Of a stretch of DNA of 64,000 nucleotides, positions 17,236 to 21,447 are shown piece by piece; position 1 is the stretch's first letter, and each line of letters starts with the position of its first letter. The DNA is taken from assembly GCF_000482245.1 (NCBI RefSeq), contig NZ_AWNH01000057.1, positions 1 to 64,000 of the forward strand, written 5' to 3'. The position numbers were made by a program, and so were the translations under genes. The notes beneath the pieces are model-generated. The model had not been told where the DNA came from, made no database searches, and saw only the letters and a list, made by a program, of their open reading frames with translations. Source of the DNA: Leptolyngbya sp. Heron Island J (GTDB taxonomy: Bacteria > Cyanobacteriota > Cyanobacteriia > Phormidesmidales > Phormidesmidaceae).

Positions 17236-17798
17236 CTGGGTGAGTTCGCTTTTTCTCGCTCTAATAGCGACTCTGGTTGAATGTTGTCAGGCTTTTAGGG
17301 AGACAGTTGGATCAACAATCTTTTAAAACTCAAGTTTTAGAAAAGCTTAATGGCATCCTTGCAAGAACATAGGATTGCTTTCTGTACAAAGTGTTTTGGC
17401 ACTCTCTGCGAAGGGTGGCTTGTCCTAACAACCCGACAATTTCTCAACTGCACATCTCTTCTGCAATAAATAACCCCCAATGCACAGGGCATCGGGGGCT
17501 GATTCGCTATATTGATTCGGCTATAGGGTGGGATGGCAGTATGTCTGCCTTCTTTACCTACAATGTCCTAAGTTCAGTTTACGGACAGCTCTGTAATTGA
17601 CATGTTCATGGGATACAGGACAAATATCCGCCAAGCGACAAGCTTCAACCACTGTGACGCACATCCTTTACTTTTCCCTGGTTCCATGGGTTTTCTGAAG
17701 CTGAACAATTATTTGAGCTCAAAATCCAAATAATAGGCATATATCCATTATTTAGATAATGGTATTACACTTAGATAAAAACTTGTTTCACATCTGCC
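17236..17798. other. Intergenic region upstream of padR
   Basis: No convincing gene lies in this 563-bp stretch. A hairpin (CCCCCAATG with CATCGGGGG, one mismatch, 17474-17498) might be a terminator. Near the right end are dyads that probably serve the PadR regulator. Confidence 0.6.
17745..17778 (+). promoter_or_regulatory. Candidate PadR operator
   Basis: CCATTAT-TTAG-ATAATGG is a perfect 7-bp dyad at 17745-17762. TTAGATAA occurs inside it and again at 17771-17778, about two helical turns away. The site ends 20 bp before the PadR start, where PadR proteins commonly bind their own promoters. Binding is inferred. Confidence 0.5.
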
Positions 17799-18128
17799 AT
17801 GGGCGATCAAGAGTTAAGTCTGACTCCTAACCAAGAAATCATCTTGGCTGCGCTGCGGCTACGCAGGCGCTATGGGCTAGAAATTATGGAAGCCATTGAA
17901 AATAGCGGTGGTAAGCAAATTGGCTTTAACTCGCTGTATCCCAACCTGAAAAAGTTGGAGAAAAAGGGCTTTGTTAAATCTGAATGGGGGGATGAACTGC
18001 CCGAAGAACATACGGGAGCCCGACGGAAGTACTACCGAATTACAGGCATAGGGGTGCAGGCGCTAGATACAAAGCGACAGCAGTTAGAGGCTATGGCTCA
18101 GTGGATACCGGAGCCAAAGGGAGTATGA
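17799..18128 (+). CDS. PadR family transcriptional regulator
   Basis: The 109 residues form a PadR winged helix: LTPNQEIILAALRLRRRYGL, EIMEAIENSGGKQIGFNSLY, PNLKKLEKKGFVKSEWGDE, GARRKYYRITGIGVQALD. PadR proteins are usually repressors that release DNA on binding a small molecule. This one belongs to the short form with a single C-terminal dimer helix. It is followed one base later by the cytochrome b6-like gene, so the two are coupled, and the regulator most likely controls its own operon through the dyad just upstream. Ligand unknown. Confidence 0.9.
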   Translation: MGDQELSLTPNQEIILAALRLRRRYGLEIMEAIENSGGKQIGFNSLYPNLKKLEKKGFVKSEWGDELPEEHTGARRKYYRITGIGVQALDTKRQQLEAMAQWIPEPKGV

Positions 18129-18129
18129 C

Positions 18130-19038
18130 ATGGATAATCAAGACGTCAAATTAGCGGGTAAAGTCGCGAAATTTATCAATCGTTTTCCTGATGATTGGCA
18201 AAAATATCAAGATTGGTTGCGGGCGATTATGTCGTCTCGGTCCGTACTGCTAGAGCGTTACCCAGCCTGGCAAGCTACGATGATTTTTCGCTGGCGGCTG
18301 TTTTATTTTATGGTCTATGTTGCCAGTGGAATTTTCTGGAGTCGGTTACGGCGCTATGCCCATAAACAAGGGGCTTGGCGGACTGTCGATGGGGAAACAG
18401 TGGGCGAGCAGCCGGTTATCCGCGGGCAGTATCGCTACATTCTGCAGCGAGTAGCAACGCTTTTGGCCATGGTAGAGCTTACCCTGTGTGGCATTGCAGC
18501 CTTAACGGGGGTGATGCTGGCCTTTTATTATCAGCCAACGGCATTGGGGGCATACACATCGCTAAAGATGATTGTCAATAATGTGGCCAACGGTGCCCTA
18601 ATTCTCAGTCTGCATAATGTTGCTGGCGATGGTCTCATCGTCTTTGCCCTGATTCAAATTGTTGTCATGTTTTTGGGACGGGAGTTTTTACTATCCTGGT
18701 TTACGGCCTGGATTAGTGGCATTGGTTTGGCACTGACGGCGATGGCTCTAAGTTGGACAGCTGTGGTACTGGCCTGGGAGCAGACAGGATTTTGGCGATT
18801 GAAGATTGAGCTGAATATTTTGGGTTCGCTGCCATGGGTGGGGCCAACGCTCCGGGATATATTATCTGGCGGGAGTGGGATTAGTAGCTTTACCCTGCAG
18901 CATATGTATATGTTGCATAGCTATGTGCTTGCGATCGCAGCCATCTTGATCTCCATCACCCATCTCACCGCCCTCATCTTTCAAGAACAACAGTGGCAAT
19001 CTGCCGAGCGTTCCAACTGTGCAGCCAACCCAAAATAG
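18130..19038 (+). CDS. Cytochrome b6-like membrane protein with an incomplete heme-ligand set
   Basis: A 302-residue membrane protein with at least four spans laid out as in cytochrome b6: MLAFYYQPTALGAY corresponds to the b6 FYYxPT segment, SLHNVAGDGL to helix B, VLAWEQTGFWRLKI to LPWDQxGYWAVKI, WVGPTLRDILSGGSG to VGxxxxxLLRGGxS, and LQHMYMLHSYVL to helix D. In b6, two His in helix B (spaced H-x13-H) and two in helix D (H-x14-H) bind two hemes. Here helix D keeps both (His263, His278); helix B has His162 but Gln176 in place of the second. One heme site is thus intact and the other lost or changed. About 80 N-terminal residues are extra. The gene is coupled to padR. Role unknown; not the photosynthetic b6. 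Confidence 0.75.
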   Translation: MDNQDVKLAGKVAKFINRFPDDWQKYQDWLRAIMSSRSVLLERYPAWQATMIFRWRLFYFMVYVASGIFWSRLRRYAHKQGAWRTVDGETVGEQPVIRGQYRYILQRVATLLAMVELTLCGIAALTGVMLAFYYQPTALGAYTSLKMIVNNVANGALILSLHNVAGDGLIVFALIQIVVMFLGREFLLSWFTAWISGIGLALTAMALSWTAVVLAWEQTGFWRLKIELNILGSLPWVGPTLRDILSGGSGISSFTLQHMYMLHSYVLAIAAILISITHLTALIFQEQQWQSAERSNCAANPK

Positions 19039-19047
19039 CTAACTTTC

Positions 19048-21447
19048 CTAGGACTGAATGCGCATTTCTAGTCTTAGAGGATTTGTTAGGGTTTGTGGAC
19101 AATGCCATGTCAGCAACGCCTGCCGAATCTGAGCAACCACAGCCGAGTTTTGTGAGTCTGATGCCTGATCATCCAACATTACCCGTCTGACTCGTCCCCG
19201 CTGAATCACTAGCTCAAACACCAGCAATCCATCCTGAGGATCAACCAGCTGCAGACTTTGTAAATGTTGGGCAAGCTGTTGGAGATCGTCGTTGTCCAAC
19301 CCCTCTGCTTTGACAATCTGAATTTGCTGAGGCAGCTCCTGCGGTAAAACAGGTTCAGACCTGCTGGCAAAGGCCGTAGTTTCCATATCCGGCACGATCA
19401 GAGCTGCATCAAAGTCCTCCAGCGGCTCTATTTTTACCTGGGGAGGTGGGCTGGCCTGTTTCTTCGCAGGACTGCCTGGCATCGGCATGGAGGCTGTCGG
19501 GGCTGACGATGCCATGGATTTCAAGACTTGTCTGCGTGGCATCATCCTAGTGGATGGAGCGACTGCCCCAAACACGCCTGCATGGCTAACAGCATCTGGC
19601 ATCAGCACAGGCACATCCACAGAGACAGCGTTATGGGGCTGTTCTACACGGACATCATCGCTAACGGCAACAAACGCAGTATATTGCGAAAGCAGCTGAT
19701 AGGCTAAAGCCGTATCCGTAACAGCTTTGACTCCACGGGTGGTCTCACCGCTAACCATTTGGTTCATTAATTCCTTAATCCGCGCCCGTCCCCACAGTTG
19801 AGCGACAGCTGGATTGCCTGATGGTTCAAAACTCATAGCAAAGGATTGTTCAAAGGGCTGACCGTTAGCGGCAATGCCAGTGATTTGCAGCGTTCCTGGC
19901 TGATTGTCGGTCTTACGGCCAAACAAGATCAGGGGTTGTTCTGCAAATACATCCGGGGGAGCCATCGGGTAAAGAATTGGAGCTTCCCCTGGTCCTTGCC
20001 AATTGAGCGAGAGATTCCCCAAAACTGGATTATTGATTTGGCCAAAGAACTGATCAACAACCGTGTCAATCGGTTCATCATGACGAACGACATGGCTGAT
20101 GCCACGGCCACACTCAGCTACTCGATTGAGCAAAAAGCGATTAACCGAACTACCGGCCCCAAAGCTATGCAGTCGGGTCGATGGCCCTAGCGATCGCTGT
20201 ACTTCAGCAAAAATCTGGGGTTCATTACCAATGTAGCCATCGGTTAAGAGGACAATATTGCGAATGCGCTCTGGGTTGAACTGAGGGAGATTCAGTACTG
20301 TTTTGAGACCACGTAACATTTCAGTGCCACCCCCGGCATGCAAACGGTTGATGTAGTTCAGGGCCTGTTTGCAATTACGGGGAGTATTCTCTAGGGAGAC
20401 TTTTGCCAGCTGCTGGGTGGTATTGGCAAAGTTGACAATGTTAAAGGTGTCCTGGGGGTGCAGCCCTTGAATAAAGCGCCGCATCAATGCCTGACACTGA
20501 GCTAACGGTGCCCCTGATTGGGAGCCAGAGGTATCGATCAAAAACACCATATCCTTTGGGATATATTGCTGGGTGTCGTAGCTGATGGCCGGAATCAAAT
20601 AAACTGCAAAATGGCCACCGCGCTGATCTGACTGAGTTAAGAGAGATGTTTGGGTGGTATCGCCAGCAACCTGATAGCGCAGGACTAGGTCTTTATTGGG
20701 CAATGTATCCCTGGGAGCCAGGGTAATACGAGTGAGTGCATCCTGGGTATCCACGCTGATTTGATGGGATGGGGATTGCAGGTTTGAGATCTCAACGCCT
20801 GTCTCAAGGTCTACGGTTACCTGAATATCATGGCCAGACCGCATGCCCGCTGGCAAAATTGGCCCATTGAGACGACTGGCATCCGGTACCAGGTCTGTGT
20901 CTTGGTTCAAGGGCATGGGCTCAGGTGCCGCTCCTGAGGGCGTGGCAGGCTCAGCAATGGGGTGGCCTGGGATGTAGCGTGGCCCCACCACCATGGGAAA
21001 GACAAATTCATATGCCCCTTGCTTATAGGCCAGCTGGTCACTGTAGCTGATTGTGACCTCAATCTGCTCCCCTGGTGGAATATTAGCCAGGGACTGGGTG
21101 AAAATATTGGCCCGTTCTTGCTCTAACAGTCCGGCAGTTTTGCCAGCTTTTTTGGCTTGGTCATAAATGGTCTGGGCCTCTTCACGCTTCTCAATACGGC
21201 CTTGGATGGTGCGATCAGCAAAGCGAATCGTCATGGTGTCGACAGCTGCTTCATCTGGCAACGGAAAGACGTAGGTTGCTTCTAGAGCAGTAGTAAACGG
21301 ATTTTCAAAGCTGTGGGTAACGTTTACACGGGAAATGTTGCCGCTAACCTGGGCCTTGACAGTTGTATGTTTAAGCGGAAACGCCAGTGGTTGTTCAGCG
21401 TCATCTATATATAAGCCAGTGGTTTTAGGAGCTAGGGTTTGTACCAT
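19048..21447 (-). CDS. VIT and von Willebrand A domain protein
   Basis: Residues about 10-140 form a VIT domain (VSGNISRVNVTHSFENPFTT, EATYVFPLPDEAAVDTMTIR, YDQAKKAGKTAGLLEQERAN). A VWA domain follows at about 300-480 with the metal-binding MIDAS motif DTSGS in MVFLIDTSGSQSG and TDGYIGNE later. A disordered Pro/Ser/Met-rich linker (about 640-700) leads to a C-terminal domain (QDGLLVFELVIQRGRVRRVML, HCPQTLTNPLRLEMRIQS) resembling TonB/AgmX-type C-termini. There is no clear signal peptide. VIT-VWA proteins of bacteria are poorly characterised and are thought to mediate metal-dependent protein contacts. A good AGGAGG-like site precedes the ATG. Divergent from the NB-ARC gene across 221 bp. Confidence 0.9.
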   Translation of the reverse strand: MVQTLAPKTTGLYIDDAEQPLAFPLKHTTVKAQVSGNISRVNVTHSFENPFTTALEATYVFPLPDEAAVDTMTIRFADRTIQGRIEKREEAQTIYDQAKKAGKTAGLLEQERANIFTQSLANIPPGEQIEVTISYSDQLAYKQGAYEFVFPMVVGPRYIPGHPIAEPATPSGAAPEPMPLNQDTDLVPDASRLNGPILPAGMRSGHDIQVTVDLETGVEISNLQSPSHQISVDTQDALTRITLAPRDTLPNKDLVLRYQVAGDTTQTSLLTQSDQRGGHFAVYLIPAISYDTQQYIPKDMVFLIDTSGSQSGAPLAQCQALMRRFIQGLHPQDTFNIVNFANTTQQLAKVSLENTPRNCKQALNYINRLHAGGGTEMLRGLKTVLNLPQFNPERIRNIVLLTDGYIGNEPQIFAEVQRSLGPSTRLHSFGAGSSVNRFLLNRVAECGRGISHVVRHDEPIDTVVDQFFGQINNPVLGNLSLNWQGPGEAPILYPMAPPDVFAEQPLILFGRKTDNQPGTLQITGIAANGQPFEQSFAMSFEPSGNPAVAQLWGRARIKELMNQMVSGETTRGVKAVTDTALAYQLLSQYTAFVAVSDDVRVEQPHNAVSVDVPVLMPDAVSHAGVFGAVAPSTRMMPRRQVLKSMASSAPTASMPMPGSPAKKQASPPPQVKIEPLEDFDAALIVPDMETTAFASRSEPVLPQELPQQIQIVKAEGLDNDDLQQLAQHLQSLQLVDPQDGLLVFELVIQRGRVRRVMLDDQASDSQNSAVVAQIRQALLTWHCPQTLTNPLRLEMRIQS

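Follow-up and report, generated by a model that had tools for sequence, protein, structure and literature searches.

The DNA analysed was a 64,000-nucleotide stretch (the window) of Leptolyngbya sp. Heron Island J, assembly GCF_000482245.1, contig NZ_AWNH01000057.1. It was found to carry a gene for a cytochrome b6-like protein with a gene for a PadR-family regulator directly upstream on the same strand, and, as the original prediction had stated, one base (18129) lies between the two. The b6 layout motifs that had been read in the open reading frame were present, and the codons confirmed glutamine 176 at the fourth ligand position, together with His162, His263 and His278. The features are as follows.

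17740–17760, forward strand: operator-like inverted repeat TATATCCATTATTTAGATAAT, upstream of padR, a candidate by conservation and position
17799–18128, forward strand: PadR-family transcription regulator, 109 amino acids (PF03551, 61 bits, cut-off 27)
18130–19038, forward strand: cytochrome b6-like open reading frame, 302 amino acids
18130–18405, forward strand: N-terminal helical domain of about 92 residues, with helices at residues 3–16, 20–43 and 46–84 predicted from AlphaFold2 and alignments
18412–19038, forward strand: cytochrome b6-like four-helix core, residues 95–302, matched by PF00033, 1vf5_A and 2e74_A
18613–18615, forward strand: codon of His162 (b6 His86 position, p-side heme)
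18655–18657, forward strand: codon CAA of Gln176 (b6 His100 position, n-side heme)
18916–18918, forward strand: codon of His263 (b6 His187 position, p-side heme)
18961–18963, forward strand: codon of His278 (b6 His202 position, n-side heme)

Among the open reading frames scanned around the cytochrome, none was seen for petD, a Rieske protein or cytochrome f. The convergent neighbour (19048–21447, reverse strand) encodes a VIT/VWA protein near the marine sortase target family; its score for that family, 479.9 bits, falls short of the cut-off of 551.65, and an after-VIT domain is clearly present at 103.8 bits (cut-off 45).

Profile search against the cytochrome b/b6 family, as originally suggested, gave a match of PF00033 (Cytochrome_B) to residues 117–282 with 85.3 bits, above the Pfam gathering cut-off of 27.2. 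The best solved relative found by phmmer was 1vf5_A, with residues 112–279 aligned to b6 residues 36–203 (E = 1.2e-23). This alignment ran without a gap over 168 residues at an offset of 76, placing residues 162, 176, 263 and 278 at b6 positions 86, 100, 187 and 202, which we take to be the heme ligands, paired as 86/187 on the p side and 100/202 on the n side. Structure prediction established the same fold: the AlphaFold2 model, built from a 79-sequence alignment (mean pLDDT 89.6, pTM 0.70), superposed on b6 chain 2e74_A with a Z score of 20.6 and an rmsd of 2.7 Å over 189 residues, and the b6 match was also returned by Foldseek. A misaligned fourth ligand was ruled out by the gapless alignment across both histidine helices together with the fold match. 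The VIA structure list, which covers residues 98–296 only, holds no N-terminal-domain chains and is uninformative on that domain. Among NCBIfam families the b-type cytochrome ExtP (NF040969) scored best, and the two share a b6-like domain, but the 100.1 bits lay far below the cut-off of 290.

The cytochrome belongs to an uncharacterised family of stand-alone b6 paralogues in cyanobacteria. One bacterial-genome scan returned ten relatives, eight of them cyanobacterial and two from Anaerolineales at about 30% identity. The family was present in 32 of 386 genomes of the phylum by whole-genome search (E ≤ 1e-30), in 118 of 388 genomes of one cyanobacterial order, about 30% of that sample (E ≤ 1e-26), and in 8 of 63 genomes of the window's own order (E ≤ 1e-26). 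A plasmid location was rejected: 30 plasmid records matched, each below 60% identity and with less than 80% of the query covered, and the 15 matches listed of these 30 were 27–31% identical over 52–70%. Neither the family nor a cytochrome b/PadR pair was found described in the titles and abstract openings listed by searches of an open-access library, and in the available part of a paper on heterocyst metalloproteins the b6f complex alone appears (PMC6616624). Residue counts were taken from an alignment of 147 sequences, comprising 144 family members and three controls (L009, L010 and L012, the last being the genome's own petB-like gene). Five duplicate loci (L043, L155, L154, L002 and L001, of which L001, L002 and L154 were verified to be identical) and two more identical sequences had been removed before counting.

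The alignment established that the fourth ligand is missing throughout the family. Position 176 was Gln in 121 of the 144 members, Glu in 16, Asp in 2, Ala in 2, Asn in 1 and a gap in 2, so that His occurred in 0 of 142 and a polar Gln, Glu, Asp or Asn in 140 of 142. The three other histidines were kept in 97–99% of members: position 162 was His in 141 (Tyr in 1, gap in 2), position 263 His in 137 (Asn in 4, gap in 3) and position 278 His in 139 (Asn in 2, gap in 3), and all three controls had His at all four positions. Recurrence of the pattern across 144 aligned members rules out chance or artefact; random residues at all four positions, named at the outset as evidence against the prediction, did not occur. 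Gln was present at 176 in 18 of 18 long forms, those members that carry the N-terminal domain. Of the 126 loci without this domain, 124 are occupied at 176, in no case by His. Gln176 and PadR were ruled out as a single trait, His being absent at 176 from loci without PadR as well; the ligand loss is family-wide and not bound up with PadR. Across homologues the Gln was kept or replaced, never by His, and the PadR neighbour was confined to the long forms.

Single members depart from the common pattern. Asn is found at both 176 and 278 in L128 and at 278 in L065; position 162 is Tyr in L025, and position 176 is Ala in L103 and L106. In four of 141 members (L035, L042, L090 and L118) Asn occupies position 263, which is the position of the Rhodobacter capsulatus H198N exchange.

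The surroundings of the two heme sites were then counted at b6 positions by means of the offset of 76. The b6 Cys35 position, Leu111 in the window protein, held Ile in 96, Leu in 24, Val in 14, Phe in 4 and Ala, Arg and Thr in 1 each of 141 members, and a covalent heme cn is not expected because this Cys is missing. On the same side we found Ser or Ala at the Gly37 position in 141 of 141, Val, Ile or Leu at Arg103 in 141 of 142, Trp at Arg114 in 142 of 142, and Ile, Leu, Val, Phe or Met at Arg207 in 135 of 140, while all three arginine positions were basic in the genome's own petB and in L009. Arg103 and Arg114 of b6 presumably have roles at the n-side heme. Arg207 contacts a heme cn propionate in the b6f complex (PMC9342900). 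On the p side, Gly51 was kept in 141 of 141 members, the Arg182 position was His in 126 and Arg in 15, Gly135 was replaced by Ala in 134 of 141, and the Arg83 and Arg87 positions were variable or replaced. Thus both halves are altered, the n side more consistently. The family is like PetB of the b6f complex in its four-helix fold, in the ungapped 168-residue alignment and in the p-side His pair, but differs in the replaced fourth ligand and in the loss of Cys35 and of the n-side basic residues. PetB proper has four His ligands for two b hemes and Cys35 for covalent heme cn, and here His at 176 was found in none of 142 members, with leucine at the Cys35 position of the window protein.

These counts suggest that the protein most likely binds a single heme, close to the p side, through the bis-His pair His162/His263, and that the n-side heme is probably absent. 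It had been predicted that one bis-His heme is kept and that a second site is missing or altered; the p-side pair was borne out, but the change is not that of one ligand alone, the n-side pocket having been rebuilt. A missing second heme appears likelier than an altered one because most of the n-side surroundings have changed, beyond the single ligand. Retention of His278 and of a polar residue at 176 argues against simple loss of the site, and the altered p-side surroundings (Gly135, Arg83 and Arg87) argue against the one-heme reading. Since His278 and the polar residue persist, the n-side pocket may contain a high-spin heme or another bound molecule. We consider it very unlikely that some hydrophobic cofactor other than heme (a quinone, chlorophyll or the like) occupies it, or that it stands empty as a structural remnant: the pocket has become more hydrophobic with its His/polar pair kept, His and Gln can act as chlorophyll ligands, and eight of the ten loci in the one bacterial-genome scan were cyanobacterial, but nothing direct supports any specific cofactor. 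An improbable, if somewhat better placed, arrangement has two hemes, one of them open, in which a high-spin heme, five-coordinate through His278 and faced by Gln176 on the distal side, would bind, reduce or sense O2, NO or peroxide. The conservation of His278 (139 of 141) and of Gln, Glu, Asp or Asn at 176 would suit it, and the H198N mutant of R. capsulatus cytochrome b, in which a His ligand likewise gives way to an amide residue in the same fold, is reported to keep a high-spin heme (PMC8138165). That mutant, however, is engineered and lies on the p side (b6 His187; PMC8138165), whereas the exchange here is natural and on the n side (b6 His100), where the surrounding pocket has changed as well. 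An open heme is further disfavoured by Ala at 176 in two members and by the loss of Arg103, Arg114 and Arg207, the last of which binds the heme cn propionate (PMC9342900). If the n-side heme is truly gone, the usual cytochrome b arrangement of two stacked hemes spanning the membrane is broken and b6-style electron transfer across the membrane would be impossible.

We found that PadR linkage divides the family along another line. The 18 distinct long forms have about 92 extra residues before the core, and padR lay directly upstream in 16 of them; of the other two, L050 lies at a contig end with 117 upstream bases, and in the long form of Leptolyngbya sp. PCC 7375 (L073) PadR was not found upstream. 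PadR was present in 0 of the 126 loci without the N-terminal domain, whose upstream flank was examined and reached at least 900 bases in 120; six of these 126 "short" loci are fragments with the true start unseen (L078, L138, L139, L140, L145 and L146), and L078 may be a cut long form. The tight PadR neighbour noted at the outset was confirmed for the window gene, and the N-terminal domain with which the co-occurrence of PadR is now established had gone unmentioned. As judged from gene order, PadR is not a trait of the family but goes with the N-terminal domain. The gap between padR and the cytochrome gene was one base in 12 of the 16 loci and 2, −2, 133 and 133 bases in the other four, where start codons are uncertain. 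In a FastTree phylogeny the long forms made up a single clade of 18 tips (support 0.97) with the short form L077 as sister, and because of this branching the PadR association is, on the sequence tree, one inherited evolutionary event and not 18. In PCC 7375 (L002/L073/L155) the long form is intact, but only about 14 codons resembling the end of a PadR gene precede its start.

The N-terminal domain had no Pfam or NCBIfam match, and it was rejected as a widespread module, its profile matching the window's genome only among 386. Pfam HAAS was not detected in any of the eight long forms scanned at E ≤ 10, nor in the window domain, and the GxP motif of HAAS helix 3 was absent from residues 1–92; the same scan detects HAAS beside the PadR of L172 (52.5 bits, cut-off 27). 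A model of the isolated domain, itself weak (pLDDT 69), found no structure match in the PDB better than E 6. When 11 loci matched by the window PadR (L165–L175) were inspected, a small helical domain with the pattern LP..EEWLGDL...P.W and variants lay beside PadR in seven, two of which are paralogues in the window's own genome (contigs C36 and C29); it was not seen beside PadR in L170, L171 and L175. This small domain has no Pfam or NCBIfam name. Used as a query it returned nine further loci, with PadR adjacent in 9 of 9, but two of the PadR matches were partial and several loci were orthologous to the C29 pair, so these are not nine independent events. An hhalign comparison of the long-form N terminus with this PadR-neighbour domain (A5/A7) gave E 0.014 over 27 columns with 3% probability (0 of 150 shuffles), E 0.0034 over 26 columns with 9% (0 of 100) when more members were included, and E 0.0012 over 48 columns with 19% when most were, with 0 of 200 shuffles reaching the real score. 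A direct profile search of 60 genomes with the PadR-neighbour domain missed the long forms at E ≤ 1. On these profile comparisons, the long-form N terminus weakly resembles the PadR-neighbour helical domain and is likely, though by no means certainly, related to it.

The own-genome loci in question (L157, L173, L174 and L183) differ in what follows padR: at C36:67138–68305 it is two small proteins with the PadR-neighbour helical domain, and at C29:2739–4572 a 530-residue open frame with coiled-coil-like repeats and that domain. L172 (genome G004, L172:339–1523, reverse strand) encodes a true HAAS protein, in which HAAS (52.5 bits) is joined to an LptF/LptG-like permease (67 bits); its PadR is a relative of the window PadR, making it a true HAAS–PadR pair in another class of the phylum.

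The window PadR matched 43 PDB sequences at E ≤ 0.1, the best being PadR-like regulators, and with 53.5 bits against the curated cut-off of 101.8 it is not a member of the acidobacterial PadR family TIGR03433; six PadR genes were counted in the genome. A repeat like TATATCC-ATTTATT-GGATATA was found in 16 of 16 PadR-bearing loci, ending 59–80 bases before the PadR LTP codons. The best matches were 16–21 of 21 per locus and the best of 300 shuffles per region 14–17, in a comparison where the consensus was derived from the same loci that were scored and the shuffles preserve base content only. The window copy (16 of 21) was among the two poorest and was equalled by the best of its shuffles (16), so its candidacy rests on position and conservation. 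Furthermore, the conserved site was established as unique in the 8.06 Mb genome, both as the window 23-mer at up to three mismatches and as a degenerate 21-mer at up to two. Because the repeat is unique, these data suggest that PadR controls only its own operon. That the module is inducible, as originally proposed, is something we still infer; the conserved operator-like repeat fits autoregulation.

Collectively, the window gene can be placed with two known kinds, b6 paralogues and PadR–membrane pairs, of which it is a conserved variant, and the original interpretation was right in kind but too narrow. We propose, at a little short of even confidence, that the two genes form an autoregulated PadR/membrane-cytochrome dyad with a one-heme b6 paralogue, working like published HAAS–PadR pairs. 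In such a dyad the b6 paralogue would carry its single heme between His162 and His263, towards the p side, the n-side heme having given way to a more hydrophobic pocket with a polar Gln176–His278 pair; in one clade the core would have been fused to the N-terminal helical domain and placed directly behind padR. PadR would bind the putative repeat at 17740–17760 and thereby keep both genes of the operon repressed, contact with PadR would be made by the N-terminal domain, and repression would in turn respond to how much cytochrome is present or to its redox or quinone/ligand state. The dyad is favoured by PadR lying beside 16 of 18 long forms and 0 of 126 others by the conserved, genome-unique repeat, by the resemblance of the domain to PadR-neighbour proteins and by the true HAAS protein beside the related PadR of L172; against it stand the missing Pfam HAAS hit and GxP motif, the low hhalign probability, the negative direct search, the poor isolated-domain model with no PDB match and the origin of the association in one evolutionary event. 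In the published dyads a helical domain, typically N-terminal to a multi-transmembrane or sensory part, is encoded beside PadR, and they have been proposed as an alternative to two-component systems (PMC11237479). The long forms share the helical domain before a multi-transmembrane region and the adjoining stand-alone padR, but differ in lacking a HAAS profile and GxP, and their sensor part is a cytochrome, which is not listed among the sensor parts in the available text of that source (PMC11237479).

Plain co-regulation, to which we attach a modest chance, would have PadR answer a small soluble ligand and switch on a redox protein whose N-terminal domain serves targeting, dimerisation or assembly instead of contacting PadR. 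Classic PadR regulators respond to a small soluble ligand in just this manner, and a topology estimate points the same way. Helix 46–72 scored as a membrane helix (−8.0 to −14.6 kcal/mol on the octanol scale in ten long forms), followed by a positive stretch that suits the inside. If this helix spans the membrane and the core is oriented as in b6, the N-terminal domain would lie on the outer side, apart from PadR, and the dyad would need an interfacial helix or an inverted core. A precedent for co-regulation is the Listeria PadR LltR, reported to repress an operon whose next gene, lmo0600 (DUF1700), encodes a membrane protein, with a phenotype from overproducing it (PMC6624303). The gene order, padR then a membrane-protein gene in one operon, and the repressor role are as in the dyad proposed here, but no heme protein is part of the Listeria pair and its N-terminal domain is another (PMC6624303). 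What co-regulation leaves unaccounted for is that PadR keeps company with the N-terminal domain (16 of 18 against 0 of 126), and that this domain resembles those beside other padR genes.

Returning to the dyad, a more specific version, which we hold only tentatively, is that a b6 core with a single heme monitors the quinone pool, or detects a gas or quinone lodged in the vacated n-side pocket, and that the arm holds or releases PadR accordingly. Should the long form sense plastoquinone-pool state or a ligand and signal this to PadR, transcription would be tied to membrane redox state by a simple and new route; if the dyad is real, it would be a redox counterpart of HAAS–PadR signalling, built in cyanobacteria from a b6 duplicate.

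Some further observations concern individual loci and the short forms. L003/L051 has a 35-residue insertion between window-protein residues 258 and 259, just before helix D, that is absent from the other aligned members and is possibly an insertion sequence product or an assembly error. Among short-form loci (L014–L042 and others), 56 of 121 have an alpha/beta-hydrolase-like gene upstream in the same orientation, and 55 of 123 have a cation/proton-antiporter-like gene that runs convergently downstream; both gene names come from our reading of the sequences.
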